Of a stretch of 64,000 nt of DNA, positions 11,748 through 31,960 are shown piece after piece. Numbering within the stretch: the stretch's first letter is position 1; each line of letters starts with the position of its first letter. The position numbers and the translations under genes are program-made. The DNA comes from Rhodococcus oxybenzonivorans (GTDB lineage Bacteria; Actinomycetota; Actinomycetes; Mycobacteriales; Mycobacteriaceae). The stretch lies in assembly GCF_003130705.1 (NCBI RefSeq), contig NZ_CP021354.1, forward strand, positions 6,547,770 to 6,611,769, read 5' to 3'. The notes under the pieces were generated by a model. That model saw nothing but the letters and a program-made list of their open reading frames with translations, had not been told where the DNA came from and did not search any database.

Positions 11748-12161
11748 ATGGAACCCGTGCAGCGATTCTCCGCTGCCCGCGTCGCCCGGCTCGCTACCGC
11801 CGGACCCGACGGAGCACCGCATCTCGTACCGTTGGTCTTCGCCCTCGCCGAGGACAAAATCTACTCGTGCGTCGACTTCAAACCCAAGCGCACCACGGCA
11901 TTACGACGACTGAAGAACATCGCCGCGAATCCGTCCGTCAGCATGCTCGTCGATCACTACGACGACGACTGGGACCAGCTGTGGTGGGTGCGGGTGGACG
12001 GCGTGGCCGAGGTACTCGACGCGACCACCGCGGAAGGAACCGCCGCCATCGACGCTCTCGCCGCCAAATACCCGCAGTACGCCGCGCGCCGTCCGCAGGG
12101 ACCGGTAATCACCGTCCGCTCCCTGCGCTGGCATCACTGGTCCGCCGTGAGTACTTCTTAA
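11748..12161 (+). CDS. F420-dependent/PPOX-class oxidoreductase, split beta-barrel
   Basis: 137 aa. ATG at 11748 follows AGGGAG at good spacing. The fold is recognisable: FSAARVARLATAGPDGAPHLVPLVFAL, then YSCVDFKPKRTT, LKNIAANPSVSMLVDHYDDDWDQLWWVRVDGVAEV. This is the TIGR03668/Rv0155-like group of small PPOX F420-binding proteins, which bind F420 or flavin and reduce unidentified substrates. The last codons (AVSTS-stop) are supplied by a dispersed palindrome that covers the stop codon, suggesting that the element trimmed or extended the original C-terminus. Confidence 0.8.
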   Translation: MEPVQRFSAARVARLATAGPDGAPHLVPLVFALAEDKIYSCVDFKPKRTTALRRLKNIAANPSVSMLVDHYDDDWDQLWWVRVDGVAEVLDATTAEGTAAIDALAAKYPQYAARRPQGPVITVRSLRWHHWSAVSTS

Positions 12162-12188
12162 CACTGGGGCGTTGAGAAGTGCTCACGG
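12145..12188. repeat. Dispersed VST-stop palindrome, copy A
   Basis: 18-bp arms (CCGTGAGTACTTCTTAAC and CCGTGAGCACTTCTCAAC read on opposite strands) around an eight-base loop, fully paired if two G-U wobbles are allowed. The left arm encodes V-S-T-S and the TAA stop of the PPOX gene. Copies B and C are at 19865 and 31917. It could act as a transcription terminator. Confidence 0.8.
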
Positions 12189-12192
12189 GCGC

Positions 12193-12198
12193 TAGCCT
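12193..12198 (+). promoter_or_regulatory. -10 element of a likely leaderless SDR transcript
   Basis: TAGCCT lies seven bases before the GTG at 12206 and five bases after palindrome copy A. No Shine-Dalgarno sequence is present. Confidence 0.4.
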
Positions 12199-12205
12199 CG
12201 GGTCC

Positions 12206-12874
12206 GTGCCCACAGCCCTGATCACCGGAGCCAGCCGCGGCCTCGGAGCCGCCATCGCCCGCGAACTCGCACCGAGTCACGACCTCCTTCTCGGAGCCCG
12301 CACAGCAGCGTCGCTGACCGCCATCCTCGGCGAACTCCCCGCCGCGACTCCCTGGCCCGTCGAACTCACCGACTACGACGCGGTGGCCGACGCCTGCGCG
12401 CCGATCGAGCACCTCGACGTGCTGGTGCACAACTCCGGGGTCGCCGACCTGTCGACCGTCGCCGAGTCCAGCGTCGAGCAGTGGCGTCACACACTCGAAG
12501 CGAACGTGATCGCCGTGGCCGAGCTGACGCGCCTCCTCCTACCTGCCCTGCGCGCCGCCGGAGGACACGTCGTGCTCATCAATTCCGGTGCGGGAATCCG
12601 GGCAAATGCCGGGTGGGGATCCTATGCGGCGAGCAAATTCGCCCTCCGCGCCTTCGCGGACTCCCTGCGGCTCGAGGAGCCGGACCTGCGGGTCACCTCC
12701 CTTCACCCCGGACGGATCGACACGGACATGCAACGCGCCATCGTCGCAGGCGAGGGCAACGAATACCGTCCCGAGAGGTACCTCCGAGCCTCGACGGTCG
12801 CCGCTGCCGTACGTCAGGCCGTCGAGACGCCGGCCGACGCACATCCCACCGAAGTCGTGCTGCGCGTCCGGTGA
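12206..12874 (+). CDS. Short-chain dehydrogenase/reductase
   Basis: 222 aa from the GTG at 12206, which places the cofactor motif TGASRGLG at residues 6-13, as is usual. Further SDR hallmarks are the NSG version of the NNAG motif (VHNSGVAD), the catalytic Ser in LINSGAG, and YAASK with the catalytic Tyr and Lys. LHPGRIDTDMQ follows in the substrate loop region. It reduces or oxidises an unknown alcohol/ketone with NAD(P). It is short for the family but complete. Upstream lies palindrome A and then a TAGCCT box that suggests a leaderless message. Confidence 0.85.
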   Translation: MPTALITGASRGLGAAIARELAPSHDLLLGARTAASLTAILGELPAATPWPVELTDYDAVADACAPIEHLDVLVHNSGVADLSTVAESSVEQWRHTLEANVIAVAELTRLLLPALRAAGGHVVLINSGAGIRANAGWGSYAASKFALRAFADSLRLEEPDLRVTSLHPGRIDTDMQRAIVAGEGNEYRPERYLRASTVAAAVRQAVETPADAHPTEVVLRVR

Positions 12875-13046
12875 CAGCGAGACTTGCGCGACGCACCGGC
12901 AAAAAACCGACGTGAGATACATCACTGTTTGGTCCTTCAGAAAACCCTTAAGCTGCTCACAATCAACCGCCCTACAGTTTTTTACGTCAGCACAGTTCGC
13001 CAGCACGAGTCGGGTTTTTCACGTCGGCTCAGGAGGTAACGCCACG

Positions 13047-13388
13047 ATGAACACCGAACAGCGCAAGCCGAACGATTCCGTCATCGACGTGAGCGGCGAT
13101 CTCTTCGCTTCGATGTTCTCCCTCGATCTCGGCGACGGCGACGTGGACTACGACGCCGTCGAGCGGATCCACGATGGCGAGTTCGGCGAGTGGACCCTCG
13201 CGGCCGCACGCTCCGGGCTGTTCCCGCCCCACGCTGTGGAAGCCCTGCAGCAGTCGTGGCAGAAGGCCCCCCGCTCCCTGCTCGACGCCCTGCTCACCGA
13301 CGCCGACGAAATGACCCGTAAGCGCTGCAACATCATCTGGGCCGGCCTCGACGAGGCCAGCTCCTTCGACACTGCCGAATACGCCTGA
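13047..13388 (+). CDS. Conserved-looking acidic protein, unknown function
   Basis: 113 aa. ATG at 13047 follows a perfect AGGAGGT ten bases upstream, so translation should be strong. The sequence is acidic (LDLGDGDVDYDAVERIHDGEFGEW) and soluble, with predicted helices and an internal LQQSWQKAPRSLLDALLTDADEMTRKR. No motif identifies a function. The 170 bp upstream are AT-rich for this genome (AAAAAACC, TTTTTTACG) and may hold its promoter. It ends three bases from the convergent isomerase-like gene. Confidence 0.65.
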   Translation: MNTEQRKPNDSVIDVSGDLFASMFSLDLGDGDVDYDAVERIHDGEFGEWTLAAARSGLFPPHAVEALQQSWQKAPRSLLDALLTDADEMTRKRCNIIWAGLDEASSFDTAEYA

Positions 13389-13391
13389 CGG

Positions 13392-14042
13392 TCAGAACGG
13401 CCAGGCGGGAACCGACGGCAGCCCGGTACGGGTGGGACGGCCGATCAACCACGCGAGCAGCTCGTGATGCGGCAGTTCCGGAATGGTGACGTCGGGATGA
13501 AGTGTCTTCAACTCGGGTAGCTCCGTCGCCAACGTGTTGTCGACGAAGGCCTCCGGCCAGTCACCGACCGCATGGTCCAGGCCGAGGTCGACGTGATGGA
13601 TCTCGAGTTCACGCCACCGCAGTACCGGCACATCCCGGGCCGTCACCGGCTTACGCCAGTTCACCGGCGTCTCGAACCGGTCCGCGGTGATCTCCCGAAG
13701 CGAATCGATCACGCGGCGGCCGGCGAATCGAAAGTCGGCGGCGAGGAGCTCGACGGACCGGCCCGCCCCCTCCTCTATCGCGGCTGCCCGGGCAGCAGGC
13801 CCGCCGGGATACATCTCCGGAGCGGGTTCCCCCGTAATCACGCCGACGGCGAACCGGTTGAGAGCATCCGCGTTCCTCGCCAGATGCGTCACCACATGAC
13901 CACGACTCCACCCCGGTAACCGGGAGGGTTCACGGGCCTGCTGGTCGGTCATGGTCTCGAGCGTCGACTCGAGCGCCCGCTGCGACGCGGCCACCTCCTC
14001 GAGCAGTGCGGTATACGACTGATCGGTGTGCGGCGCGGTCAT
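13392..14042 (-). CDS. Mycothiol-dependent maleylpyruvate isomerase-family protein
   Basis: 216 aa, start ATG at 14042. It belongs to the TIGR03083/DinB-like four-helix family: SRLPGWSRGHVVTHLARNADALNRF provides the first metal-ligand helix and WRELEIHHVDLGLDH the second (HxxxD). Members are mycothiol S-transferases or maleylpyruvate isomerases that use mycothiol, the actinobacterial thiol; the substrate here is unknown. TAGCAT lies exactly seven bases before the ATG, suggesting a leaderless transcript. Rv0036c is a similar protein near leuS in M. tuberculosis. Confidence 0.85.
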   Translation of the reverse strand: MTAPHTDQSYTALLEEVAASQRALESTLETMTDQQAREPSRLPGWSRGHVVTHLARNADALNRFAVGVITGEPAPEMYPGGPAARAAAIEEGAGRSVELLAADFRFAGRRVIDSLREITADRFETPVNWRKPVTARDVPVLRWRELEIHHVDLGLDHAVGDWPEAFVDNTLATELPELKTLHPDVTIPELPHHELLAWLIGRPTRTGLPSVPAWPF

Positions 14043-14049
14043 GGCCCCG

Positions 14050-14055
14050 ATGCTA
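14050..14055 (-). promoter_or_regulatory. -10 element of a likely leaderless isomerase transcript
   Basis: On the minus strand TAGCAT is followed by seven bases and then the ATG at 14042, with no Shine-Dalgarno sequence. Confidence 0.45.
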
Positions 14056-14162
14056 GGTGATCACACCGGAGAACCCACGGAATTAACGACTGCGACAGAA
14101 TCCCGCGATTCGCGGTCGCCCATTCTGGTTACTCGTCGGTTCGGGACGGCAAAGCCAGCCCT

Positions 14163-14215
14163 TTCAGCGCACGACAGCCTTTTCAGCACACGACAGCCCG
14201 TTCAGCCCACGACAG
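14163..14215 (+). repeat. Three 15-bp direct repeats with a 19-bp period
   Basis: TTCAGCGCACGACAG, TTCAGCACACGACAG and TTCAGCCCACGACAG start at 14163, 14182 and 14201, differing only at the seventh base. The array ends 14 bases before the start of the CsbD-like gene. It could be a protein-binding array or a folded leader; it is too short and irregularly spaced for CRISPR. Confidence 0.8.
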
Positions 14216-14229
14216 TAGGAGAACCATCC

Positions 14230-14787
14230 ATGAGTGATCGCGACACGTCCGGGGAAGCCCGCGAAGGTTTGCTGGACTCCGTCAAGGGCAAGGCGAAAGA
14301 GGTCGCCGGAGCGGTGACCGGGAACGACTCGCTGACCGCCGAGGGACAATTGCAGCAAGCCGAGGCGCAGCAGCGCAAAGAGGCGAACACCGCCGAAGCC
14401 ATCGCCCGGGCGGAGACCGAGCAGGCGGCCGAGGAACTCCAGGAAGTGCGTGCCGAAGGGGCCGCAGAACGCGCCGAGGTCCGGGACGAGGCGGATGTTG
14501 CACGGCAAGCCGCCGAAGAGCAGCGCCGAGCACAGCGCCGGGCGGCCGAAGAGGCGCAGCACCGTGAGGTGGCCACGGAGCAGGCCCGAGCCGGAGTCGA
14601 CGCCCGGATCGAAACCAGTCGCGCCGAAGAGAATGCGCGCACCGAGGTCGCTGCCGCGGCGGAGAGCGCCGGAGAGGCCGTCGAGGAGCATCGCCAGTCG
14701 ATACGCGAAGCGGACGCCGCGCGGGCCGAAGCCGAGCGTGCACGTCGCGAAGCCGAGGCCCTGCGCGACGACGCCGAACAGTCCTGA
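14230..14787 (+). CDS. CsbD-like stress protein with a long charged helical extension
   Basis: 185 aa, ATG at 14230 after AGGAG. Residues ~8-35 resemble the CsbD fold (GLLDSVKGKAKEVAGAVTGNDSLTAEGQLQQAEAQ), a small domain induced by general stress in Bacillus and actinobacteria. The rest is an almost uninterrupted Ala/Glu/Arg-rich helix with heptad character, likely a long coiled coil. The next gene, 28 bases downstream, also encodes an Ala/Glu/Lys/Arg coiled-coil protein, so the two probably act as a pair. A triple direct repeat immediately upstream may control them. Function unknown; stress role inferred from CsbD only. Confidence 0.75.
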   Translation: MSDRDTSGEAREGLLDSVKGKAKEVAGAVTGNDSLTAEGQLQQAEAQQRKEANTAEAIARAETEQAAEELQEVRAEGAAERAEVRDEADVARQAAEEQRRAQRRAAEEAQHREVATEQARAGVDARIETSRAEENARTEVAAAAESAGEAVEEHRQSIREADAARAEAERARREAEALRDDAEQS

Positions 14788-14815
14788 TCACCACCCACGT
14801 ATCGAGGGAGATTCG

Positions 14816-15493
14816 ATGAATATCGTCAGTGTGCCGTTAGCGGTCCTGCGCCTGCAGTACAAAATCGTGCGGTTCCCGTTGCAACTGATCGAGGACCAGT
14901 TCATGTCCCGGCTGGGTACCGAGGCGCCGGCGCGGGTGATGTACGAACGCACTCTCGGCGTCCTCGACGGCGCCGTCGGCAGTGTTCTGGGCGATCAGGA
15001 GGTCGAGCAGCGCGGCGCGGCGCTCACCAAACGCAGCGACGCGCTCCTGCGGGCAGCGGAACTCGATGCCGAGGCGAGCCGCAAAGAGGCGGAGGCAGAC
15101 GCCGAGTTGGAAGCCGGGCGGCAGCGCGCCAACGAGCAGCAAGTTGAAGCGCAGGAGGCGAAGCAGCGCGAGGTCGAGCAAGCCCGTAAGCGCGAAGAAG
15201 AACGCAAGCGCGCCGCCGCTCAGGAGGCCGAACAGCGCAAGCAAGCCGCCGCGAAGCAGGCCGACGAGCAGGCAGCTCAGCGTAAACAGGCCGCGGAGGC
15301 CGCCGCACGGAACGAGCGGGAGAAGATCAAGGCTGCCGAGGAGAAGGCCGCTGCACCTGCCAAGGAGCAACTGCAGGAAGCCGCCGACAAGCAGAACGAG
15401 GCTGCAGACAAGCGGGCGCGGGCCGACCGCGTGGAGGATTTGGCCGAGTCCGAGGCCGCCAACCGCAAGAACGAGAAGGCCGCCGGCAGCTAG
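14816..15493 (+). CDS. Coiled-coil protein with amphipathic N-terminus, partner of the CsbD-like gene
   Basis: 225 aa, ATG at 14816 behind GAGGGAG. The first ~70 residues are a mixed hydrophobic region (VSVPLAVLRLQYKIVRFPLQLIEDQFM) and could sit on the membrane surface. From ~75 on the protein is a very long Lys/Arg/Glu/Ala helix with repeated EAxQRKQAA-type segments. A shape of membrane-associated head and long coiled coil suggests a scaffold, but no family is recognised. Its TAG shares the palindromic CTAG with the stop of the convergent hydrolase gene. Confidence 0.7.
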   Translation: MNIVSVPLAVLRLQYKIVRFPLQLIEDQFMSRLGTEAPARVMYERTLGVLDGAVGSVLGDQEVEQRGAALTKRSDALLRAAELDAEASRKEAEADAELEAGRQRANEQQVEAQEAKQREVEQARKREEERKRAAAQEAEQRKQAAAKQADEQAAQRKQAAEAAARNEREKIKAAEEKAAAPAKEQLQEAADKQNEAADKRARADRVEDLAESEAANRKNEKAAGS

Positions 15494-16470
15494 TGGCCTG
15501 CCGACCCGGTGACGTCCAGGTCGGTTACGAAATCCAGCAGGAGCGTGTTCACCTCGGTGGGCCGCTCCTGCTGAACGAAATGCCCGGCACCCTCCAGTAT
15601 GTGCACGCCCCGCAGGTCGGGAACGGCCTCCCGCATGCGGTCGAGTGCCGCCGAACCGCTCATCGCGAGGACGGGATCACGGGCACCGGCGATGAACAGC
15701 GTCGGGACCTCGATGGGGGCGCCATCGAGGTCCACGCTGCGTTCCCAGTTCGCGTCGTACGCCCGATACCAGTCGAGGCCCCCGGTGAATCCGGTAGCGC
15801 TGAATACTCTGACGTAGTGGTCGAATTCGGCCTGCGACAACCACGACCACGGCAACGGCGGTGCGTGCGGCAACACGTCGAGATAGCCGTTGCCCTCGGA
15901 CGGGTGCTGCCAGATGTCGAGGTAGTGATAGTCGCCCGAGAGCGCGTGGAACAGCCTGTGCAGGAATCGGCGAGGGTCGGCGTCGAGCTCCCGATCCGCG
16001 ACACCGGGTTCCTGAAAGTAGTGGATGTGCAGAAAGTGCTTGCGCGCCACCGCCGCATACAACTCGGACGGTCGGGCGGGGAAACGGTCGGGCGCATAGG
16101 GCACCGCCAGGAGCACCAGCCCCGACACCCGCTCGGGGTGGCGTAGAGCGAGCGTCCACGCGACCGGGGCGCCGAAGTCGTGGCCGACGAATACCGCTCG
16201 ATCTTCACCGAGCGTGTCCAGGAGGCCGACGAGTTGGTCGGCGACGCGATCGTTCGCGTAGTCGTCGATGGTGACGGGGGTGTCCGTGCGACCGTACCCG
16301 GGCATGTCCGGCGCGAGGGCCCGGAACCCGGAATCGGCGAGCGCGCGACTCTGATGGCGATAACTGAACCCGAGTCCCGGGAATCCGTGGCACATCACCA
16401 CCGGCGGTCCTGCGCCCAGATCGCTGATACTCCAACGGAATCCGTCGACCACGACCTCGCGTTCGGACAT
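15490..16470 (-). CDS. Alpha/beta hydrolase, epoxide-hydrolase-like
   Basis: 326 aa. The ATG at 16470 overlaps the TGA of the upstream dehydrogenase gene, indicating translational coupling. Motifs: oxyanion region MCHGFPGLGFSYRHQ (HGFPG), nucleophile elbow VFVGHDFGAPVAW with Asp as the nucleophile (GHDFG, as in epoxide hydrolases and dehalogenases), and the catalytic His in GAGHFVQQE. An Asp nucleophile argues against the C-C hydrolase HsaD, which uses Ser. Its position behind a KstD-type dehydrogenase gene suggests it acts on a steroid- or terpenoid-derived intermediate. Confidence 0.85.
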   Translation of the reverse strand: MSEREVVVDGFRWSISDLGAGPPVVMCHGFPGLGFSYRHQSRALADSGFRALAPDMPGYGRTDTPVTIDDYANDRVADQLVGLLDTLGEDRAVFVGHDFGAPVAWTLALRHPERVSGLVLLAVPYAPDRFPARPSELYAAVARKHFLHIHYFQEPGVADRELDADPRRFLHRLFHALSGDYHYLDIWQHPSEGNGYLDVLPHAPPLPWSWLSQAEFDHYVRVFSATGFTGGLDWYRAYDANWERSVDLDGAPIEVPTLFIAGARDPVLAMSGSAALDRMREAVPDLRGVHILEGAGHFVQQERPTEVNTLLLDFVTDLDVTGSAGH

Positions 16471-18209
16471 CACTCTCCGGACGTGCCTGCCATCGACCGC
16501 GCCCTCTCCGCAATGTCGAGTGCCGCAAGATAGCCGAAGACCAGCGCAGGACCGATCGTGGCTCCCGGTCCCGCATAGGTGTGTCCCATGACCGGCGCGC
16601 TCGTGTTTCCCGCCGCATAGAGTCCCTCGATGACGGTTCCGTCTTCGCGAAGTGCTCGCCCCGCCGTGTCGGTGTTGATGCCGCCCTTCGTACCCAGATC
16701 GCCCGGGACCATCTTGGCCGCGTAGAACGGGCCCTTGGTCAACTCGCCCAGGCTCGGGTTGGGTTTGTTGCTGATGTCGCCGTAGTAGTGGTCGTATTTG
16801 CTCTCACCACGGTGGAAGTCCTCGTCCACACCCCGGCGGGCGAACCCGTTGAACCGTTCGACGGTGGCGGTGAAACGATCCGCGGGAACACCGATCTTCT
16901 CGGCAAGGCCCTCGAGAGTGGACGCCTTGACGATCGCCCCGCTTTCGAGCCACTTCCTGGGAAGCGGGGCACGCGCCGTGACACTGGCGAAGAGGTACCG
17001 GTCCCGGTAGGTCTGGTCGAAGATCAACCAGGCGGGGATGTTCTCGCCCGGGCCGTCGCCCTGCCCGTACTCACCGCCATACATTCGATGTACCGCCTCG
17101 ACATACGGCAGCGACTCGTTCATGAACCGCTCGCCGCGGTCGTTGACCATGATGCTGCGCGGCAGTGACCGCTCGGCGAGGGCGAACCACGGTCCCTTGG
17201 GCAGCGGGATGCTCGGACCCCACCAGGCGTCGCTCATGAAGCTCACCCCGGCACCGAGTTTCAGCGCCGCATTGATACCGTCGCCCGTATTCGACGGTGC
17301 CCCGGTGGTCCAGTCGGAACCGATCGGCTCGCGCTGGTACTTCCGTCGCATCTCCGCATTGTTGTCGAATCCACCGCACGCCAGGACGACACCGTGCCCC
17401 GCGCGCAGCGTCGTGGTCTGCTCGTTCGACTTCACGACCACCCCGACTACGCGGCCGTTCTCGGTGAGCAGATCGGTCAGCTCGGTGTTCAGCCGCAGGG
17501 GGATACCCGCTTGGCGGACCCCGAGAAGGAGTTCCGCCATCAGGGCCGCACCCATGCCGATCAGGTGCTGTCGCCGCGCCTTCGCGACCATACTGCGCAG
17601 CCCGACCCGCACCATCCGAACCGGTCCGCGCCAAGTCCGGAATCCCGTACTCAGCCAGCGATAATCCGACTGCTTCACGACGACGTTCAGTGGGGTCTTG
17701 CTGTACGGCGGATGCAGGGTGTCGAGGTCGTCGCCGAGTGCGCGCGCATCGAACGGCACGGGCTCACACGAGCGACCGGTAGCCAGCCCGCCCGGTGCCT
17801 CCGGGTAGTAGTCGGAGTAGTTCTTCACCCATTCCAACTTCAGCGGACTGTGGTCGATCAGGAACTGGAGTGCTTCCGGCCCTCTGTCGATGTAGGTGTC
17901 GATCCGCTCGGGATCGACGACCGGTCCGACGATGCTGCGCACGTACGTGCGGGCGGCCTCGAGATCGTCGGGGGGAGCGTCCCGTTGGAGCACCGTGTTT
18001 CCCGGAATCCATACTCCGCCACCGGATCGGGACGTGGAGCCGCCCCAATACGGCGACTTCTCGACGATCACCACTTTCAGTCCGCGCGCGGCCGCGGTGA
18101 TCGCGGCACTCATTCCGGCAGCGCCCGATCCGACCACGACCACGTCGAAGCTCTGGTCCACCGATTCCTTCGCGGGGAGGATGGCGTGGTTGTCCCCTGA
18201 TGTGGTCAT
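16470..18209 (-). CDS. kstD: 3-ketosteroid delta1-dehydrogenase-type flavoprotein
   Basis: 579 aa from the ATG at 18209, which has AGGGAG five bases upstream. N-terminal FAD-binding Rossmann motif VVVVGSGAAGMSAAITAAARG, then EKSPYWGGSTSRSGGGVWIP. The C-terminal flavin region GLYAAGNTSAPVMGHTYAGPGATIGPALVFGYLAA is characteristic of KstD and related FAD-dependent ketosteroid dehydrogenases, as is the 560-580 aa length. It would introduce the C1-C2 double bond into 3-ketosteroids. Rhodococcus has several paralogues, so the exact substrate is open. A perfect KstR-type operator is 33 bases upstream of the start. The hydrolase gene is coupled downstream. Confidence 0.85.
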   Translation of the reverse strand: MTTSGDNHAILPAKESVDQSFDVVVVGSGAAGMSAAITAAARGLKVVIVEKSPYWGGSTSRSGGGVWIPGNTVLQRDAPPDDLEAARTYVRSIVGPVVDPERIDTYIDRGPEALQFLIDHSPLKLEWVKNYSDYYPEAPGGLATGRSCEPVPFDARALGDDLDTLHPPYSKTPLNVVVKQSDYRWLSTGFRTWRGPVRMVRVGLRSMVAKARRQHLIGMGAALMAELLLGVRQAGIPLRLNTELTDLLTENGRVVGVVVKSNEQTTTLRAGHGVVLACGGFDNNAEMRRKYQREPIGSDWTTGAPSNTGDGINAALKLGAGVSFMSDAWWGPSIPLPKGPWFALAERSLPRSIMVNDRGERFMNESLPYVEAVHRMYGGEYGQGDGPGENIPAWLIFDQTYRDRYLFASVTARAPLPRKWLESGAIVKASTLEGLAEKIGVPADRFTATVERFNGFARRGVDEDFHRGESKYDHYYGDISNKPNPSLGELTKGPFYAAKMVPGDLGTKGGINTDTAGRALREDGTVIEGLYAAGNTSAPVMGHTYAGPGATIGPALVFGYLAALDIAERARSMAGTSGE

Positions 18210-18242
18210 ACGGCTCCCTATCGGTACGTGAAGTACCAAAAC

Positions 18243-18256
18243 TAGAACACGTTCCA
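18243..18256. promoter_or_regulatory. KstR-type operator upstream of kstD
   Basis: TAGAACACGTTCCA fits the published KstR motif TnnAACnnGTTnnA at every fixed position. It lies 33 bases before the dehydrogenase ATG. KstR is the TetR repressor of cholesterol catabolism genes in actinobacteria. Confidence 0.8.
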
Positions 18257-18288
18257 CCATAGATCAAGGGTGGCGTCACTTCCGATCC

Positions 18289-19365: not shown

Positions 19366-19371
19366 ACCGAC

Positions 19372-19428: not shown

Positions 19429-19803
19429 TCAGCGCGTAACCATGTCCTCCTGTGACCAGTACGCCTTCATGGTCGTGATCTTGCCGTCGTCGTCGAAGGT
19501 CATCACATCGATCGGCGCTATCTCGAGCTTCTGCTCACCCAGTTCGGTGACCAGCGAGAAGTGGAAGGCCGCTGTGTTTCCGGCGATCCTCAGCGTGTGC
19601 AGTTCGCTGGTCTGCTGTAGCGGCTCGATAACCCCGTAGAACTCGCGAATCGACTCCACCGTGGTTCGCGGGTCGGTACCCACCGGATCTTCCACGACTG
19701 CACCGTCGGCATAGAGCGCCAGCACGTCGTCGACGGTGCCCGTGGCCACCACCTCGACGTACCTCTCGACGGTCTTGCGGATGTCTTCTGCGGACGGTGC
19801 CAT
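19429..19803 (-). CDS. ksi: Steroid delta5-3-ketoisomerase (KSI)
   Basis: 124 aa, ATG at 19803 behind AGGAG. This is more than a generic SnoaL-fold protein. The sequence aligns by eye with bacterial ketosteroid isomerase over its whole length and keeps the catalytic residues at almost the same numbers: Tyr15 (ERYVEVV), Tyr56 (IREFYG), Asp39 in VEDPVG (the proton-shuttling base) and Asp99 in APID (oxyanion hole). It converts 3-keto-delta5 steroids to delta4 isomers without cofactor (EC 5.3.3.1). A perfect KstR-type operator 22 bases upstream supports a role in sterol catabolism, and a KstD-type gene lies 1.2 kb downstream. Confidence 0.88.
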   Translation of the reverse strand: MAPSAEDIRKTVERYVEVVATGTVDDVLALYADGAVVEDPVGTDPRTTVESIREFYGVIEPLQQTSELHTLRIAGNTAAFHFSLVTELGEQKLEIAPIDVMTFDDDGKITTMKAYWSQEDMVTR

Positions 19804-19864: not shown

Positions 19865-19914
19865 CACCCGTGAGCACTTCTCAACCACGGAGTGTTAAGA
19901 AGTGCTCACGGGTG
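19865..19914. repeat. Dispersed VST-stop palindrome, copy B
   Basis: 21-bp arms (left arm begins CACCCGTGAGCACTTCTCAA) around an eight-base loop with one mismatch, starting ten bases beyond the leuS stop. Here it encodes nothing and probably terminates leuS transcription before ksi. Confidence 0.8.
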
Positions 19915-19923
19915 CGGAGCACT

Positions 19924-22761
19924 TCAGAGGACGATATTGACCATCTTCCCCGGCACGACGATCACCTTGCGCGGATCCTTGCCGTCCAGCAGTGCCACGA
20001 TCTTCTCGTCGGCGAGCGCGATCTTCTCGATCTCCTCGCGTGACGCGTCGGCCGCCACCGTGACTCGGCTGCGGACTTTGCCGTTCACCTGGATCGGGTA
20101 CTCGACGGTGTCCTCCACCAGCCACTTCTCCTCGGCCACCGGGAAGGGACCGTGGGCCAGCGACTTCTCGTGGCCGAGGCGCGACCACAGCTCCTCCGCG
20201 AGGTGCGGGGCCAGCGGCGCGAGCATGAGCACCAGGGGCTCCACCGCGGAGCGAGGGGCACCGCCGGGGTAGGCCTTGGTGAGATGGTTGGTGTACTCGA
20301 TCAGCTTGGCCGCCGCGGTGTTGTCCCGCAGGGCCGTGTAGTCGTCGCTCACCCCGGCGATCGCCTTGTTCAGCGCACGCAGGGTGTCCTCGGAGGGGGC
20401 GTCGTCCGTGACCCGCACGGCGCCGGACTCCTCGTCGACCACCACCCGCCAGGCGCGCTGCAGGAAACGCTGAGCGCCAACGACGTCCTTGGTCGCCCAC
20501 GGACGCGACGTGTCGAGCGGGCCCATCGACATCTCGTACACCCGGAGGGTGTCGGCCCCGTACTCCTCGCAGATCTCGTCCGGCGACACCGAGTTCTTGA
20601 GGCTCTTGCCCATCTTGCCGTACTCGCGGTTGACCTCCGCGCCCTGATAGAAGAACTTGCCGTCCTTCTCCTCCACCTCGTCGGCCGGCACGTACACCCC
20701 GCGCGCATCGGTGTAGGCGTAGGCCTGGATGTAGCCCTGGTTGTACAGGCGGCGGTACGGCTCACTCGAGCTGACGTAGCCGAGGTCGAACAGCACCTTG
20801 TGCCAGAACCGCGAGTACAGCAGGTGCAGCACAGCGTGCTCCACACCGCCGACATACAGGTCGACGCCGCCGGGATCGTTCGGTCCGTGGATCTCCGGCC
20901 GCGGACCTGTCCAGTACTGCTCGTTCTCCTTGTCGCAGAACGTGTCCTGGTTGGTCGGGTCGATGTAGCGCAGCTGATACCACGAACTGCCCGCCCACTG
21001 TGGCATCACGTTGGTGTCGCGGCGGTACGTCTGCAGTCCGTCCCCGAGGTCGAGTTCGACATTGACCCAGTCGACAGCCTTCGCCAGCGGGGGAGAGGGC
21101 TCCGAGGAGGCGTCGTCGGGATCGAAGGACACGGGAGCGTAGTCCTCGACCTCCGGAAGTTCTACCGGCAACATGGAATCCGGCAGTGCGTGCGCATTGC
21201 CGTCGGCGTCGTACACGATCGGGAAGGGCTCACCCCAGTACCGCTGACGAGCGAACAGCCAGTCGCGCAGCTTGTACTGGATGGTGCCCTTACCGGTGCC
21301 GTCCGCCTCGAGACGCTCGGTGATGACCCTCTTGGCGTCGGCGACGGTCATTCCGTTCAGGAAGTCCGAATTCACGATGGTGCCGTCGCCGGTGTACGCG
21401 TCCTTCGTGAGATCGCCACCGGAGATCACCTCGACGATGTCGAGACCGAACTCGGTCGCGAACTCGTAGTCACGATGATCATGGCCGGGGACCGCCATGA
21501 TGGCGCCCGTGCCGTACCCGGTGAGGACGTAGTCGGCGATGAACACCGGCAGCTCGCGCCCGTTGACGGGGTTCACCGCGTAGGTGCCGAGGAAGACACC
21601 CGTCTTCTCCTTGTATTCCTGACGCTCGAGATCCGACTTGGCCGCAATCGACTTCCGGTACGCCGCAACGGCTTCGGCCGGGTTGGCCGCACCGCCGGTC
21701 CATCGCGGATCGACGCCCTCGGGCCACTCGGCGGCGACGAGCTCGTCGACGAGGTCGTGCTCCGGCGCCAAAGTCACATAGGTGGCGCCGAACAGCGTGT
21801 CCGGACGAGTCGTGAACACCTCGATCTCGTGACTGTCGGCCTGGAATCGCACCTGCGCACCGTGCGAGCGCCCGATCCAGTTGCGCTGCATGGCCTTGAC
21901 CTTCTCGGGCCAATCCAGGTACTCGAGGTCGTCGACAAGGCGGTCGGCGTAGGCAGTGATCCGCATCATCCACTGCTGCAGGTGCTTCCGGAACACGGGG
22001 AAGTTGCCGCGGTCGCTGCGGCCGTCCGCTGTCACCTCCTCGTTGGCCAGGACAGTGCCCAGACCCGGGCACCAGTTGACCATCGAATCCGAGTGGTACA
22101 CCAGCCGGTAGGAGTCGAGCACGGCTTCCTTCTCGGAGACCGACAACGACTGCCAGTCCCGCCCGTCCTCCACGGTGCGCTCACCCGAGGCGAACTCCGC
22201 CTCGAGCTCGGAAATGCGCCGGGCCTTCCCAGCCTTCTTGTCGAACCAGGCGTCATGGATCTGCAGGAAGATCCACTGCGTCCAGTGGTAGAAGTCGACG
22301 TCGGTGGTCGCGAACGTGCGCCGCTCGTCGTGCCCGAGGCCGAGACGCCGGAGCTGGCGCTTCATGTTGATGATGTTCGCCTCGGTGGTGGCCCGCGGAT
22401 GCGTTCCCGTCTGCACCGCGTACTGCTCCGCCGGCAGACCGAACGCGTCGTACCCGAGCGTGTGCAGCACGTTGTGGCCCTGCATCCGGTGATAGCGGGC
22501 GAACACGTCGGTGGCGATGTAGCCGAGTGGGTGCCCCACGTGCAGACCCGTCCCCGACGGGTACGGGAACATGTCCTGCACGAACAGCTTGTCGGCGGGA
22601 ACCGGGCCTGCCAGCGGGCCGACCGGGTTGGGCGCGTCGAAGGTGCCCTCCGCGCTCCATCGATCCTGCCAGCGCTGCTCGATCTGGCCGGCGAGTTCCG
22701 CGGTGTAGCGGTGCTGCGGGGTCGCGTCGGACGGGTTGGCGGGCTGCGCGTGCTCGGTCAC
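19924..22761 (-). CDS. leuS: Leucyl-tRNA synthetase
   Basis: 945 aa with a GTG start. Class I signatures are present: the HIGH motif as HVGH ([24 protein letters not shown]) and KMSKS as KMGKS ([17 protein letters not shown]). The CP1 editing domain lies between ([18 protein letters not shown] and a long connective insertion) and a C-terminal anticodon-binding domain ends the protein. It charges tRNA-Leu in the cytosol. The gene is followed by palindrome copy B. A long open frame on the opposite strand is a GC-bias shadow. Confidence 0.97.
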
Positions 22762-26032: not shown

Positions 26033-26101
26033 CCGAACATCATCCCACCGCGGCGAGAGTGATGTGTCCCAGGACGCGAGCTGCGTCCGGTTCGCACGAA
26101 T

Positions 26102-26797: not shown

Positions 26798-26837
26798 GGG
26801 TTCAGGGTGCCGATCGGAGAGAGCGGTGTCAACAAAC

Positions 26838-26852
26838 GAGAGCAGTGCTCTT
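26838..26852. promoter_or_regulatory. TetR operator, distal copy
   Basis: GAGAGCAGTGCTCTT, seven-base arms around a central G with one end mismatch. Its centre lies 49 bases from that of the second copy. It abuts a TTGACT that could be a -35 box for the oxidoreductase gene. Confidence 0.65.
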
Positions 26853-26886
26853 GACTTTGCGCTCATACGGGCGCACTCTTCGAACA

Positions 26887-26901
26887 GAGAGCAGTGCTCT
26901 C
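26887..26901. promoter_or_regulatory. TetR operator, proximal copy
   Basis: GAGAGCAGTGCTCTC, a perfect 15-bp palindrome with a central unpaired base, 32 bases upstream of the oxidoreductase ATG and downstream of a possible CACTCT -10 box, where a bound repressor would block transcription. Confidence 0.7.
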
Positions 26902-26933
26902 CCTACTGGACACCACACACATCGGGAGCAGAA

Positions 26934-27875
26934 ATGTCGAACATCGAAATCGTCACCGGCGCGGGACCCGTCGGCGCGACAGTGGCACAGCAGCTCGCAG
27001 AACAGGGGCGACGCGTCCGCCTGCTCACCCGCTCCGGAAGCGGTCCGGAACACCCGCTGATCGAGCGAAGGGCGGTCGACGTATCCGACCCCTCGGCCGT
27101 GCATGCAGCTTTCGAGGGGGCCGCCGCCGTCTACCACTGCATTCACGCCGCCTATACCGCCGAGGCGTGGGAGCGCACCCTCCCCGCGGCGGAGCACACC
27201 GTTCTGGAGGCGGCGGGAGAGGTCGGCGCGGTGGTCGTGTTTCCGGAAAGCCTCTACTCCTACGACACCGAACAGCAGCCCATGACCGAAACCACGCCGC
27301 GCACCGCCACGACGGGAAAGCGCGGAATCCGTGCCCGGCTGCTCGACGCTCGCGCCGCCTCCTCGACCCCCACCGTCAGTGTCGTCGCCTCCGACTTCTT
27401 CGGTCCGCAGGTGCTCAGCGCCCACGCCGGCGAGCGCATGGTCCCGGTTGTGCTCGCCGGCAAGACGATGCGCGTCCTGGGCTCTGCCGACACGCCCCAC
27501 TCCTTCACCTTCGTCCCCGACCTCGCGGCGGCGATGATCGTCGCAGCACACGACCGCGACCTGTGGAACTCCGTGTTGCACGCGCCGACGGCCCCCGCGG
27601 TGACCCAGCGGCAGATGGTCCAGGCTTACGCCGACGCAGCGGGGGTGCCGGCACCGAAGGTGAGCGCTCTCCCGGGATGGGTTCTCCGGACGGCAGGCCG
27701 CCTCCACGAGGGGTCCCGCGAGCTGGCGGAGATGATGTACCAGTTCGAGAACCCGTTCGTCATGGATTCGAGTGCCAGCGAGCAGCGCCTCGGGCTGAAG
27801 CCGACGCCACTGCCTGAGGCCGCAGAGCAGACCGTCCAGTGGTGGCGGGAGAGGTCCCTCGCACAGGCCGGATAA
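26934..27875 (+). CDS. NAD(P)-binding epimerase/reductase of the atypical SDR class
   Basis: 313 aa, ATG at 26934 after GGGAG. The Rossmann motif GAGPVGATVAQQLAEQG at residues 8-24 is of the extended/atypical SDR type (GxGPxG). Later parts resemble NmrA/epimerase proteins (VVVFPESLYSYDTEQQP, SVVASDFFGPQVLSAHAGERMVP, FTFVPDLAAAMIVAAHD). The catalytic YxxxK is not obvious; KRGIRARLLDAR occupies that place. It may therefore be a binding or reductase protein of different chemistry. Presumably repressed by the divergent TetR protein; substrate unknown. Confidence 0.75.
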   Translation: MSNIEIVTGAGPVGATVAQQLAEQGRRVRLLTRSGSGPEHPLIERRAVDVSDPSAVHAAFEGAAAVYHCIHAAYTAEAWERTLPAAEHTVLEAAGEVGAVVVFPESLYSYDTEQQPMTETTPRTATTGKRGIRARLLDARAASSTPTVSVVASDFFGPQVLSAHAGERMVPVVLAGKTMRVLGSADTPHSFTFVPDLAAAMIVAAHDRDLWNSVLHAPTAPAVTQRQMVQAYADAAGVPAPKVSALPGWVLRTAGRLHEGSRELAEMMYQFENPFVMDSSASEQRLGLKPTPLPEAAEQTVQWWRERSLAQAG

Positions 27876-27878
27876 GGT
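27873..27878 (+). promoter_or_regulatory. -10 element of a likely leaderless MFS transcript, overlapping the upstream stop
   Basis: TAAGGT begins with the TAA stop of the preceding gene and lies seven bases before the ATG at 27886. It could give the transporter a leaderless transcript independent of the upstream gene. Confidence 0.4.
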
Positions 27879-27885
27879 CCCGTGA

Positions 27886-29193
27886 ATGGCGGAACAGCTC
27901 GGCAACCCGCGAGGACGACGGGAGGCGTGGCGTCGTACCGCGCACACCCTGCGCCGGTCGCCCGGGCTGGCCCGGCTTGCGACCGTGCGATTTGCCAGCC
28001 AGTTCGGCGACGGAATGTTTCAGGCAGCGCTGGGTGGCGCCATCTTGTTCAATCCCGAGCGCGAGACCGACCCGCTGGCGATCGCCGCCGGCTTCGCGGT
28101 ATTGCTGCTTCCCTACTCGGTGATCGGACCCTACGCGGGGGCACTCCTCGACCGCTGGGATCGTCGGACGGTGCTGCTGTGGGCCAATGTCCTACGTGGA
28201 GTACTGATTCTGGTGACCGCCGCCCTTCTGGGGTCCGGGGCCGGAGAGTTCCCGATCCTTCTCCTCGCCCTCGCCGCCATCGGTGTCAGTAGGTTCGTAC
28301 TCGCCGGCGTCTCCGCCGCGCTACCGCGCGTGGTCCACAAATCGTGGCTGGTCGCCACCAACTCCGTGCTCACCACCACCGGTTCGGTAGTGTCCGCTCT
28401 CGGAGCCACAACATCCGTCGCCGTCGTCGGTGTCGCGGGCGCAGGCGACCGCGGGTCCGGTATCGCCGTCGCCGCCGCCGCGGTCGGTTCCGTGGTCGCC
28501 GCTCTCGCGGCGTCCCGATTCCATCGTCGGCTTCTCGGCCCACACGCGGATGAACGGGCGGATTACGGAGTGGTCCGTGCCGTCGCGTCGGGACTGCGCA
28601 ACGGAGCCGTGGCCGTGTGGCGGTCCCCGGGCGTCACCACCGCCATGATCGGCATCGGCACGCATCGGATCGTGTTCGGCGCCAACACGCTGATCATGGT
28701 CCTCGTGCTGCGAGACACGTCCAGGGCCGGTTCCCTACCGGGAGGACTGGCCGGGTTCGGTGTCGCGGTCGGCGCGACCGCAGCGGGGATGCTGCTCGCC
28801 GCGATCTCCACACCGTTCACCATTCCGCGAATCGGTCGCTCCCGCACCATCACCACCGCGTTGGTCCTCGCCCTTGTGGCGCAGACGACGCTCGTGGCGA
28901 CCCTGACCCAGGCCTCCCTGCTGTGGGGTGCACTGGTTCTCGGATTCGCCGGGCAGTCGATCAAGCTGAGCGGCGACGCCGCCATGCAGATCGACATCAA
29001 AGACGACCGCCGCGGGCAGGTGTTCGCGCTCCAGGACACGGTGTTCAACGTGGCGTTCATCGCGTCGATCGCCGCCGCAGCCCTCGTGATCGCCCCCGAC
29101 GGCCGATCACTCGGATTGGTACTGGCCGGTTCGGCCCTTTACGCCCTGGGACTCGGCGCTGCCCTACTCAACGCACGTCGCGGCCGACCCTGA
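27886..29193 (+). CDS. Major facilitator superfamily transporter
   Basis: 435 aa, ATG at 27886, ten bases after the upstream stop. Twelve hydrophobic segments; the loop between helices two and three carries GALLDRWDRRTVLLWANVLRG, the MFS motif A region (DRxxRR). It resembles Rv0037c, a predicted multidrug-type efflux protein located near leuS and yqgE in M. tuberculosis. Substrate unknown. It converges on the hotdog gene with 19 bases between. Confidence 0.88.
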   Translation: MAEQLGNPRGRREAWRRTAHTLRRSPGLARLATVRFASQFGDGMFQAALGGAILFNPERETDPLAIAAGFAVLLLPYSVIGPYAGALLDRWDRRTVLLWANVLRGVLILVTAALLGSGAGEFPILLLALAAIGVSRFVLAGVSAALPRVVHKSWLVATNSVLTTTGSVVSALGATTSVAVVGVAGAGDRGSGIAVAAAAVGSVVAALAASRFHRRLLGPHADERADYGVVRAVASGLRNGAVAVWRSPGVTTAMIGIGTHRIVFGANTLIMVLVLRDTSRAGSLPGGLAGFGVAVGATAAGMLLAAISTPFTIPRIGRSRTITTALVLALVAQTTLVATLTQASLLWGALVLGFAGQSIKLSGDAAMQIDIKDDRRGQVFALQDTVFNVAFIASIAAAALVIAPDGRSLGLVLAGSALYALGLGAALLNARRGRP

Positions 29194-29212
29194 GCGGTCC
29201 TGGACGCCGCTC

Positions 29213-29623
29213 CTATCCGGAACCGGGCAGCGGCACATTCTGCAGACGAACCTGTCCACGGGCCACCTCTTTGCCGGTGTCGGAAGCGGTGATGACCACC
29301 GACCACAACTGCTGGATACGGCCCTGCTGAATCGGTAGGGCCACCACGTCGACGCGACCTTCGGTGCGGGACCGGATGAAGTCGGTGCCGTTGTGCACAC
29401 CGACCGCGAACTGGCCGCGGTCTGCCACTGCCGTGCTCGCACCGATACTCGCGGCGCTCTCGACTGCCGTCGTGTAGACGCCACCGTGCACGACCCCCCA
29501 CGGCGTGTGGTGCTCGGCGGACAGATCGATGTGGCCGACGACTTTCGTGCCCGATACCTCGTCGAGTTCTAGGCCGGCAGCGGCGACGAAAGCGCTCGCC
29601 GCGGACGTGGTCAGGTCGGTCAT
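29213..29623 (-). CDS. PaaI-type hotdog thioesterase
   Basis: 136 aa, ATG at 29623 behind AAGGAG. Hotdog-fold motif: HHTPWGVVHGGVYTTAVESAASIGA (HGG with the following acidic residue as general base), then DFIRSRTEGRVDVVALPIQQGR. PaaI/YdiI-like proteins hydrolyse acyl-CoA thioesters such as hydroxyphenylacetyl- or 1,4-dihydroxy-2-naphthoyl-CoA; the acyl group cannot be told here. Confidence 0.88.
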   Translation of the reverse strand: MTDLTTSAASAFVAAAGLELDEVSGTKVVGHIDLSAEHHTPWGVVHGGVYTTAVESAASIGASTAVADRGQFAVGVHNGTDFIRSRTEGRVDVVALPIQQGRIQQLWSVVITASDTGKEVARGQVRLQNVPLPGSG

Positions 29624-29660
29624 GGTCCATTCTCCTTGTCGATCCGCACTGGGTTTGAAA

Positions 29661-30152
29661 TCACAACTTACCCTCCCCGATCTCAGGGGCCACGTCAATG
29701 GCGCCGCCGTGGCCGAGTGCCGCCTCGGACCGCCAGAGAGAAAGTGCGCCGGCCGTCACGGCACCGGGAATCGGATCGGAAGCCACCGCGCGCACGCTCG
29801 GGTCGGACGGTTCGTCATTGCGTCGATCGGGCACTGGATCCAGATGGCGACGCAGGTCGTACGCGGGTTCGATGTGGTCGCCGGCCACCCGCACCTCGCG
29901 GTCCCACGTCCCGTTGCCGCTGGGGTCGGTGAAGTAGCGGGCTTCGTTCCCGGCGTCGTAGTCGAGCACCGAGTGGTCGGCCGCCCCGTCCCCGTTGTCG
30001 TCCCACATGGCGTCGTCGAGAAGCCCGTCGCCGTCGAAGTCGAGCCGCACCGCGTCCATTCCGCCGAGCAGACCCAGATCGAGGTCGGCTGGGGAGATCC
30101 AGGTCGCGGGGGCTTCTGCGCCGGTTCCGAACGAATACTCGAGAGGGTCCAT
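29661..30152 (-). CDS. Acidic protein with EF-hand-like calcium repeats
   Basis: 163 aa from the ATG at 30152; the frame stays open further upstream but that part overlaps the start region of the divergent secreted protein and looks non-coding. Two Asp-rich segments, LDFDGDGLLDDAMWDD and DDNGDGAADHSVLDYD, resemble calcium-binding loops of the dockerin/thrombospondin-3 type. No signal peptide with this start and no clear ribosome binding site, so the true N-terminus may differ. It is divergent from the DUF4185 gene. Function unknown. Confidence 0.6.
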   Translation of the reverse strand: MDPLEYSFGTGAEAPATWISPADLDLGLLGGMDAVRLDFDGDGLLDDAMWDDNGDGAADHSVLDYDAGNEARYFTDPSGNGTWDREVRVAGDHIEPAYDLRRHLDPVPDRRNDEPSDPSVRAVASDPIPGAVTAGALSLWRSEAALGHGGAIDVAPEIGEGKL

Positions 30153-30396
30153 GTAAGGATTCGACGCAGCGCGACCGCATCCGGTTCCGCTGGAAGGGAA
30201 AAACCCAGGGGCTTCGCCACACCCCGGGTGGCCTCGATCTGCGAAATCGTATGCGACCGTGAAACCGTACTGTAACCGGACTGCGACCGGGCACGCCGGG
30301 CACTGAACCCGAGAACGCTGCCACCGGGTGTTACCTTTTGCCCTGAACGTGCAGGTCGGTCCATCCTGACTCCGACCACCGATCTGGAGGGGTCCC

Positions 30397-31911
30397 GTGG
30401 TCGAGAAGTCCTGGTCTGTTGCCGGAGCACCGTTGTGCGTCGCCGCCGTCGTCGCGGCAACGATCGGGTTTTCGGCAGGTCCCGCTGCGGCGGAGACGAA
30501 TTCGTGGTTGCCGGTGAACATCTGTGGCGAGACCGGGTTCAACCCGGCCAAGGAGCCCCCGACTCCCGGTGGTCCGCTGCTACCGCCGATACCGCCGACC
30601 ATCGCCATCCCGATTCCGTACCCAGACTTCGTGCCGGTGCCGGTCCCCGGACCCACCGTCGATCAGACTCGCGTGGCACAAGATCTACCTGCCGACCCCT
30701 GCGCGGACCCGTGCCCGGACCTCACCGACGAGATCGAGGAACCCCAGCCGGAGGTCGGCTCGTCGGGATCTTCCGGGTCGAGCGCGCTGCACATTCCGAA
30801 GATCGAAATCGACCCACGCCCGGAGACCATTCCGATCCCCGTCCCCGGCGGCCCGGGTCCCGCGCCGCAGCCCGCACCCCCGGTGCAGATCAACCCGGCC
30901 GAACGGGGCTCCCTCACCGAAGCACTCGGCACCCCGGCGGTCGGTGACGTGCGCCTGGTGTCGCAGCTGACGGGCCACGGTTCGGACAATCGGACCGACA
31001 AGCGCTGGCAGGTGGACGGCACGGACCTCGGCATCATCTGGGAGACGAAGCCCGGGGAGGTGGCCATCGCCTTCGGTGACACCTTCGGTAAGGACTGGAA
31101 TCCGCCCGGCGCCTTCGGGGAAGACTGGCGCAGCAACGTTCTCGGGCACAGCACGGACACCGACCTGTCCGACGGCATGACCATCGACAGCATGGTGCAG
31201 GACAGCCGCTGCCACGCCGCCGAGATCATCGACAGCCGGCACATCCCCAACTTCGAGACGACGACCATTCCCACGTCGGGGTTCACGATCGGCAACCGGC
31301 AGTTCCTGAGCTACATGTCGGTGAAACGGTGGAGTGTGGTGCCCGGCATGTGGTACACGAACTACGGCGGCATCGCGTACTCCGACGACAACGGTCAGAC
31401 GTGGACCAAGGACCAGCACGCCAAGTGGCACAACATTTTCGGCGCCCGTTTCCAGGTGTCGGCCATGGTCCCCCACGGCGACTACGTGTACATGTTCGGC
31501 ACTCCGAACGGGCGCATCGGCACCATCGGTCTGGCCCGGGTGCCCGTCGATCAGGTACTCAACACCACGTCGTACCAGTACTGGTCGAACGGAACATGGA
31601 CGCCGGTCTCCGAACATCTCGCGACCCCGATCGTCGGTGGGGTGGCCAGCGAGCTGTCGGTTCGTTACGACACCGGCACCGGCACGTGGCTGATGAGCTA
31701 CCTCGAGCCCATCGGCGGGCGGATCATCCTCCGCCAATCCTCGTCCCCACAGGGCGTTTGGTCCGGCGGAGCCACTCTCGTCGACACCACCGACTACCCG
31801 AAGGCGTACGGCGGCTTCATCCATCCGTGGTCCACCGGCAAGGACCTGTACTTCACGATGTCGGAGTGGGACAGCTACAACGTGTACCTGATGCACGCGT
31901 CCCTGCGCTGA
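30397..31911 (+). CDS. Secreted DUF4185 protein, GH183 endo-D-arabinanase family
   Basis: 504 aa, GTG at 30397 behind GGAGGGG. A signal peptide ends near AAAETN (residue ~33). A proline-rich, low-complexity linker runs to about residue 175. The DUF4185 domain fills the rest: VSQLTGHGSDNRTDKRWQVDGTDLGIIW, VAIAFGDTFGKDW, WYTNYGGIAYSDDNGQTWT, FGTPNGRIGTIGLARVP and a C-terminal WSTGKDLYFTMSEWDSYNVYLM. DUF4185 proteins were shown to cleave mycobacterial D-arabinan (GH183). Rhodococcus has an arabinogalactan wall, so this may remodel its own wall or attack that of relatives. Palindrome copy C follows the stop. Confidence 0.82.
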   Translation: MVEKSWSVAGAPLCVAAVVAATIGFSAGPAAAETNSWLPVNICGETGFNPAKEPPTPGGPLLPPIPPTIAIPIPYPDFVPVPVPGPTVDQTRVAQDLPADPCADPCPDLTDEIEEPQPEVGSSGSSGSSALHIPKIEIDPRPETIPIPVPGGPGPAPQPAPPVQINPAERGSLTEALGTPAVGDVRLVSQLTGHGSDNRTDKRWQVDGTDLGIIWETKPGEVAIAFGDTFGKDWNPPGAFGEDWRSNVLGHSTDTDLSDGMTIDSMVQDSRCHAAEIIDSRHIPNFETTTIPTSGFTIGNRQFLSYMSVKRWSVVPGMWYTNYGGIAYSDDNGQTWTKDQHAKWHNIFGARFQVSAMVPHGDYVYMFGTPNGRIGTIGLARVPVDQVLNTTSYQYWSNGTWTPVSEHLATPIVGGVASELSVRYDTGTGTWLMSYLEPIGGRIILRQSSSPQGVWSGGATLVDTTDYPKAYGGFIHPWSTGKDLYFTMSEWDSYNVYLMHASLR

Positions 31912-31916
31912 CGCAC

Positions 31917-31960
31917 CCGTGAGTACTTGTTAACCACGGGATGTCAATAAGTACTCACGG
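31917..31960. repeat. Dispersed VST-stop palindrome, copy C
   Basis: 18-bp arms (CCGTGAGTACTTGTTAAC and CCGTGAGTACTTATTGAC on opposite strands), eight-base loop, one wobble and one mismatch. It lies between the convergent DUF4185 and modC genes. The right arm encodes the end of ModC, V-S-T-Y and the TGA stop. Confidence 0.8.

Follow-up and report, generated by a model that had tools for sequence, protein, structure and literature searches.

A dispersed palindrome at gene ends in large-genome rhodococci, a candidate DNA site of a lineage-restricted protein

The genome of Rhodococcus oxybenzonivorans contains a palindromic element, called F1 here, whose copies lie mostly at the ends of genes. 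The window considered in this study is a 64,000-nucleotide stretch (contig NZ_CP021354.1, assembly GCF_003130705.1, positions 6,547,770 to 6,611,769) at the end of a 6.61-Mb contig, in a genome of 8.0 Mb. F1 is a 44-base palindrome, with a 40-mer of arms plus spacer as the core used in scans, and can be viewed as two inverted half-sites, CCYGTGAGTACTT[A/C/G]TTAAC, flanking an 8-base spacer. The arm consensus CCGTGAGYACTTNTYRAC occurs in the window six times with 0 mismatches, forming three inverted pairs at 12145-12188, 19868-19911 (with arms reaching 19865-19914) and 31917-31960. Each pair has a spacer of 8 bases, so that the original prediction of three palindromes, made from the letters of the window, was exact in both coordinates and spacing. 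Even when up to 3 mismatches are allowed the window holds 6 arm matches, against 0.74 expected, and none of 100 shuffles reached six. The three copies and the genes around them are as follows.

11748-12161, plus strand: gene for a PNPOx-type flavin oxidoreductase (Pfam PNPOx_N), with V-S-T-S and its TAA stop within the left arm of copy A
12145-12188: copy A, arms 12145-12162 and 12171-12188, spacer 12163-12170
12179-12874, plus strand: gene for a short-chain dehydrogenase, downstream of copy A; its start codon is uncertain, and the start called for it falls in the right arm
19429-19803, minus strand: SnoaL-like gene, downstream of copy B
19865-19914: copy B, 21-bp arms 19865-19885 and 19894-19914, spacer 19886-19893
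19924-22761, minus strand: leuS, with the copy B 44-mer beginning 12 bp past its stop
30397-31911, plus strand: gene for a DUF4185 protein, with copy C beginning 5 bp past its stop
31917-31960: copy C, arms 31917-31934 and 31943-31960, spacer 31935-31942, between convergent genes
31944-33023, minus strand: modC (Pfam ABC_tran and TOBE), with V-S-T-Y and the stop within copy C

Copies A and C overlap the ends of genes, as had been claimed for them. The stop codon of the PNPOx-type gene (12159-12161) falls inside an arm of copy A and closes a protein ending ..SAVSTS, and that of modC (31944-31946, minus strand) falls inside an arm of copy C and closes one ending ..HAVSTY. Copy B sits between leuS and the SnoaL-like gene, both of which are read from the minus strand.

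Further copies, which the original prediction had called for, are abundant. With 3 or fewer mismatches allowed in its fixed bases, the 40-mer is found 61 times on each strand of the genome and a backwards control gives 0; two more diverged copies bring the catalogue to 63, all of them on contig C1. Relatives were drawn from a 28-genome Rhodococcus set, in which the present genome is labelled G000 and the others G005, G007, G024 and so on. F1 is matched in 11 of the 28 genomes, with 29-100 copies in each of ten and 2 in G024. The ten rich genomes measure 7.8-10.3 Mb, and two others, of 7.3 and 7.5 Mb, have none. Across 397 genomes of the order, representing 85 genera, only this genome and G026 match; the 394 genomes of other genera and one further Rhodococcus genome of the draw gave no match. 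A scan of named species, restricted to copies with perfect fixed bases, listed matches in at least 80 loci, and among the matches listed were Rhodococcus opacus, R. jostii, R. koreensis, R. wratislaviensis and one Rhodococcus metagenome-assembled genome. These loci hold 88 copies, of which 8 lie too near a locus end for a call of context, leaving 80 for the comparisons below. A literature search found no title or abstract about F1; the portion of PMC5217627 that was available does not contain GTGAGTAC, and a sequence match to F1 in the available portion of PMC6921075 is a primer.

The 126 half-sites of this genome define the unit CCY-GTGAGTACTT-V-TTAAC. Position 11 of the arm is A, C or G about equally, and T is found there in 0 of the 126 half-sites and in 0 of 160 among the matches listed from the named loci. 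The two half-sites of a copy carry the same base at position 11 in 30 of 63 cases (21 expected) and differ in 33, with agreement in 46 of 80 copies among the matches listed from named loci, and they agree at position 13 in 47 of 63 (46 expected). Comparison of the copies indicates that it is the half-site sequence that is kept and that pairing beyond it is not clearly kept. An extension of the pairing into the spacer was considered and dropped, as positions 17 and 18 pair at or below the level set by composition among the matches listed from named loci; position 18 in G000 is slightly above it, at 31 against 22.8. In 57 of the 63 copies the two central bases of the spacer are CC or GG. Codirectional copies in G000 seemed to favour one orientation of this centre (21 CC and 7 GG), a bias that was not repeated among the matches listed from named species (12 CC and 18 GG).

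Gene contexts were taken from our own gene caller, and a copy was assigned to a gene 3' end when the gene ended inside the copy or within 30 bp of it. By this measure 52 of the 63 copies lie at 3' ends; 24 copies are between convergent genes, 31 between codirectional and 5 between divergent ones, and 3 are inside open reading frames (ORFs). The null for the 60 copies outside ORFs was uniform placement in the gaps between genes plus 31 bases of gene tips. Against this null the position of F1 relative to stop codons is far from random, as the original prediction had supposed: 52 of 60 copies are at 3' ends where 37% would be expected (p 4e-15), and convergent and divergent placements, expected at 16% and 28%, depart from it with p 7e-6 and 3e-4, respectively. 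Among the matches listed from named loci, 73 of 80 copies are at 3' ends, with 42 convergent and 6 divergent.

Where genes end within F1 they do so in fixed registers of the arm, 15 of them in the register that reads VST, 17 at the TGA of CCG-TGA, and 2 in the third frame. The 15 proteins of the first group stop at arm bases 15-17 and have C-termini of the form V[SR][TA][SYC]. The proposal that the arm supplies the last codons and the stop is borne out by these genes and by the orthologues of modC. In G007 and G014, the protein ends ..HAARAA and ..HAARAV, in genomes bearing the element it ends ..AVSTY, ..VRTC or ..VRTS, and in G024 ..AVGTS. Since the orthologues lacking the element end differently, F1 is seen, by this comparison, to have supplied the C-terminus of ModC. 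F1 is a clear case of a short DNA element that gives 15 proteins of one genome a common C-terminus; in a few other proteins it is translated through. The shared V-S-T-stop endings would be a by-product of where copies landed, and selection seems to see the DNA.

The preference for gene ends raises the question of termination. A bidirectional transcription terminator, or an RNA hairpin at the 3' end helped by small GC-rich hairpins, could end or protect both flanking transcripts; this account is possible, though we consider it rather unlikely. The placement at 3' ends is what it calls for, and convergent pairs are enriched 2.5-fold here and 3.3-fold among the matches listed from named loci, relative to the uniform null for the loci of this genome. 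Like known intrinsic and bidirectional terminators, F1 would form a stable hairpin directly after or over stop codons; the predicted RNA hairpins of the window copies range from -22 to -31 kcal/mol (z -6 to -8), and small hairpins adjoin 28 of the 63 copies compared with about 17 in shuffles. F1 differs from such terminators in having no T tract; in the window a loose terminator scan is passed by copy B alone, and there on the leuS strand. Covariance models of Rfam matched nothing when the window was scanned at gathering scores, and nothing in 10 loci scanned at E <=1.

A hairpin kept for its RNA form should also favour the transcribed strand at wobble positions, and the original prediction had taken compensating wobble pairs as a sign that the hairpin is kept. 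All 4 of the 4 codirectional G000 copies first inspected looked favourable. Of the matches in which one arm reads TCAAC, 30 further loci were then read, 15 of them convergent, 3 in ORFs and 12 codirectional, the last scored for the strand able to form U-G. That strand was transcribed in 6 of the 12 and not in the remaining 6, so wobble position 13 shows no strand preference and the inference from wobble pairs falls away. Template switching between the arms of a palindrome would flip spacers and would also give symmetrical changes in the arms, and such symmetry therefore says little for RNA pairing. Neither symmetrical changes nor the shared V-S-T C-termini should be read as signs of RNA or protein function.

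The original prediction also suggested that the element is mobile or gene-converting, a matter that can be approached by asking which copies are shared between species. From G005, 39 of 76 copies were taken, chosen for 0 mismatches or for having one TCAAC arm. Of the 39, 22 share their place with a G000 copy, 3 match a G000 locus that has no copy, and for 14 no locus matches among the G000 stretches compared; these stretches were those around G000 copies, which makes 22 a lower bound. One copy at a thioesterase gene is common to G000, G024 and, in decayed form, G007 and G014. These shared places, in a relative whose silent sites differ from those of G000 by about half, argue together with the thioesterase copy that much of the dispersal of F1 is old and inherited in place. 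One arm variant, GTGCG, is rare here (8 of 126 half-sites), and eight genomes have retained it at modC; this speaks against gene conversion having overwritten the copy at that locus. Current mobility or conversion is therefore not supported by either line of evidence. Neither the one empty orthologous site examined nor the thioesterase shows a target duplication or a sharp edge to mark a clean insertion boundary. At the 3' end of modC in G008, F1 is cut inside the second arm and followed by unrelated DNA, a rearrangement breakpoint within the palindrome.

Repetitive extragenic palindromic (REP) sequences and bacterial interspersed mosaic elements (BIMEs), associated with the REP-associated tyrosine transposases (RAYT, of the Y1 or TnpA-REP type), are short dispersed palindromes found mostly outside genes. 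F1 resembles them in being dispersed and extragenic, with 60 of 63 copies outside called ORFs, and differs from them in that the palindrome is complete over 40 bp and that 22 or more of 39 copies occupy orthologous places. A selfish repeat of this kind, or one like a miniature inverted-repeat transposable element (MITE), still copied or converted between sites and uniform without benefit to the host, would explain a short, dispersed element restricted to one clade, and for 14 of the 39 copies from G005 the G000 stretches compared offer no counterpart. Copies are also clustered on C1, where 12 neighbouring pairs lie less than 6 kb apart (3.5 expected; maximum of 11 in 2000 random placements). 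The copies read in frame (see below) and a second 40-bp palindrome family in the genus fit this account as well. We nevertheless find it quite improbable, given the orthologous places just described and the modC variant that was not overwritten. The phage collection gave no match and IMG/VR none (exact matches only), and the 7 plasmid records found at E <=10 are all from Rhodococcus, the best three under an annotation of nonribosomal peptide synthetase (NRPS). A RAYT or Y1 mobiliser was tried as a candidate and rejected: PF01797 is found in 12 of the 28 genomes, with no match in the F1-bearing G000, G010, G016 (74% complete) and G027. The genes lying between clustered F1 pairs, where both members fall in one of the stretches analysed, look ordinary.

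Constraint on F1 was gauged by comparing arms and spacer across species. The 22 pairs above, together with copies A and C, give 24 orthologous pairs from G000 and G005; in these, 23 of 720 arm positions differ (3.2%), as do 73 of 192 in the spacer (38%) and 29 of 48 at position 11. The modC locus was reached via the protein, so that relatives were not selected on the element, and there 4-fold sites differ by 0.47-0.54 between G000 and six relatives; in the same six the arms differ at 2-4 of 30 positions and the spacer plus position 11 at 4-6 of 10. Another copy lies in a divergent intergenic region, upstream of the gene for a DNA methyltransferase, and was likewise reached via the protein. Of 12 loci read there, 8 have it intact, with 0-1 mismatches; its spacer and position 11 vary, and all 8 intact copies have the centre GG. 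F1 is accordingly a real, clade-restricted and dispersed palindrome that is kept by selection. The spacer changes in a particular way, its centre being flipped in 13 of the 24 pairs and the whole spacer being the exact reverse complement of its partner in four, although the usual spacer is itself almost self-complementary. These flips may be due to template switching between the arms.

Constraint extends to copies inside genes. Two NRPS genes (five genomes in all), the thioesterase gene and one further ORF without a Pfam match carry F1 in frame, always in the same frame and with TAA changed to CAA. The NRPS copies encode VSTYQPRDVNK[HY]S or VST[YC]QPPAV[NK]KYS, using codons that are rare here (AGT 9%, ACT 11%, GTT 9% and TCA 6% of their amino acid). 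Their arms differ at 1 of 30 positions where 4-fold divergence is 0.43 and at 0 of 30 where it is 0.09-0.18, and exact copies have been retained in place, one in two genomes and the other in three. The arrangement recalls the Rickettsia palindromic elements (RPE), in which a palindrome is read in frame inside unrelated proteins. Compared by description, F1 shares with RPE the in-frame presence in unrelated proteins, and differs in carrying stops in all frames, in lying mostly at gene ends, and in having arms that hardly change between species while the spacer does.

These copies bear directly on termination. The divergent intergenic copy keeps its arms, and exact copies are read through in frame in the NRPS genes, both of which count against a terminator. 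The original prediction, that F1 closes both the reading frame and the transcript, holds for the frame in that the arm does supply the stop; as the target of selection such closure is doubtful on account of these same copies. What is conserved is primary sequence rather than pairing, in the divergent intergenic region as well, and a terminator mechanism does not by itself explain the constraint.

Not all relatives retain the element. The nearest, judged by identity of LeuS (100% of a 221-aa stretch) and ModC (91%), is G024, where F1 is decayed or deleted at all four sites read (modC, leuS, methyltransferase and thioesterase). At the thioesterase gene of G024, 3 of 30 arm positions have changed from G000 beside coding sequence with a 4-fold divergence of 0.07. 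The thioesterase copies of G007 and G014 are strongly decayed and their modC ends show no element; at their methyltransferase site a remnant and an absence are indistinguishable. In G027 the modC copy has lost part of its spacer, and the copy at the methyltransferase gene carries an internal deletion. Decay in close relatives is awkward for a self-sufficient terminator, which should stay useful there. Loss of a trans-acting partner in some lineages would probably explain the decay more simply than independent local losses.

DNA uptake sequences (DUS, or uptake signal sequences, USS) are taxon-specific and form inverted pairs at gene ends, features that F1 shares. Molecular drive of this type, in which a site favoured in DNA transfer is kept by biased exchange, could also accommodate the upkeep of copies outside gene ends and decay in some lineages. 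F1 is, however, present in far fewer copies and as a much longer unit, with only 29-100 full 40-bp palindromes in each of the ten rich genomes, and such drive seems to us highly improbable.

The constraint away from gene ends, together with the decay of several copies in the same genome, favours a reading of F1 at the level of DNA. We suggest, at roughly even chances, that it is the site of a sequence-specific, probably dimeric and lineage-restricted putative DNA-binding protein. The copies would have dispersed before the lineages split, mostly into gene 3' ends, and the arms would be read by a trans-acting protein that was lost in the relatives with decayed copies. If a protein does bind F1, it would represent a system of DNA binding across the genome that has not been described in rhodococci, for which the relatives with decayed copies offer natural negative controls.

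As to what such a protein might do, a role in chromosome domains or control of division is our first guess, prompted by two observations. The first is position along the chromosome. A cluster of parS-like sites places the replication origin near the end of the window:

58016-60585, plus strand: seven parS-like sites, three of them exact GTTTCACGTGAAAC and four with one mismatch, putting the origin near the contig end

The origin half holds 48 of the 63 copies (p 4e-5, with accessory DNA uncorrected). Two of the exact parS-like copies, at 58016-58044, are one base apart. The second observation is that the F1 arm opens with GTGAGTACT, an exact match to bases 1-9 of the 12-base SlmA binding site (SBS), GTGAGTACTCAC. 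There are 50 SlmA sites in E. coli K-12, none of them in Ter and most in coding regions, according to the part of the report that was available (PMC3116907). F1 differs in spanning 40-48 bp with two such starts and in preferring gene ends where SlmA sites prefer coding regions (PMC3116907, same part). The window itself contains no exact GTGAGTACTCAC and one match with 2 mismatches, against 2.0 expected. Stated in full, F1 would be the address of a chromosome-organising or division-licensing dimer in large-genome rhodococci, one that binds 60-100 origin-side palindromes away from the terminus and does, by independent origin, what SlmA and Noc do elsewhere, while relatives without the protein are now losing their sites; in this complete form the proposal is unlikely. 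Our second guess is a protein roadblock that insulates convergent genes.

Several observations weigh against a binding protein. No candidate for it was identified by the searches for Y1 transposases, SlmA and methyltransferases. An orthologue of SlmA passes the 120-bit cut-off of NF007015 in 0 of the 28 genomes, the best score being 42.7 bits, with weaker matches to that profile at E <=1e-7 in 27 of 28. The neighbouring DNA methyltransferase was rejected as the trans factor, its gene being present in 26 of 28 genomes and the two misses being 74-75% complete. A terminator or an insulator would be expected to favour 3' ends and convergent pairs just as strongly as F1 does. The origin bias holds only if the ends of the contig mark the origin, and may instead reflect younger or accessory DNA around the terminus and in the chromosome arms. 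Some of the constraint is built into the sampling, as the G005 copies were preselected for perfect or one-change arms, which lowers their arm divergence, and the NRPS copies were found by exact match, which partly explains their low arm counts. As to the decay, G024 retains two copies at up to 3 mismatches outside the sites read, its 4-fold divergence from G000 is 0.34 at modC, so that 0.07 is the low end, and G027, with 29 copies, is a case of partial decay in which loss is gradual.

Other palindromes occur in these genomes as well. In the window, just past a called gene end (1398), a perfect 17-bp inverted repeat, TTCGATACGCCTGCGTG, with a 5-base loop occupies 1403-1441; its sequence is unrelated to that of F1. 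A second dispersed family of 40 bp, GTGCGCCTTTTTGGTAG-N6-CTACCAAAAAGGCGCAC, has matches in 17 of the 28 Rhodococcus genomes. In every one of 17 loci read, several of which represent the same leuS site, it lies 3-16 bp past a stop codon. It is often accompanied by TAG and a small GCGGCTTCGCCGC hairpin. At leuS its arm changes are paired (G-C or C-G where the family has T-A and, further inward, T-A, T.G or C-G), and because of them the RNA hairpin may matter in this second family. After leuS in one Rhodococcus genome (G018) there is a third palindrome with the same start, GTGAGCGGTTTGTGAC....

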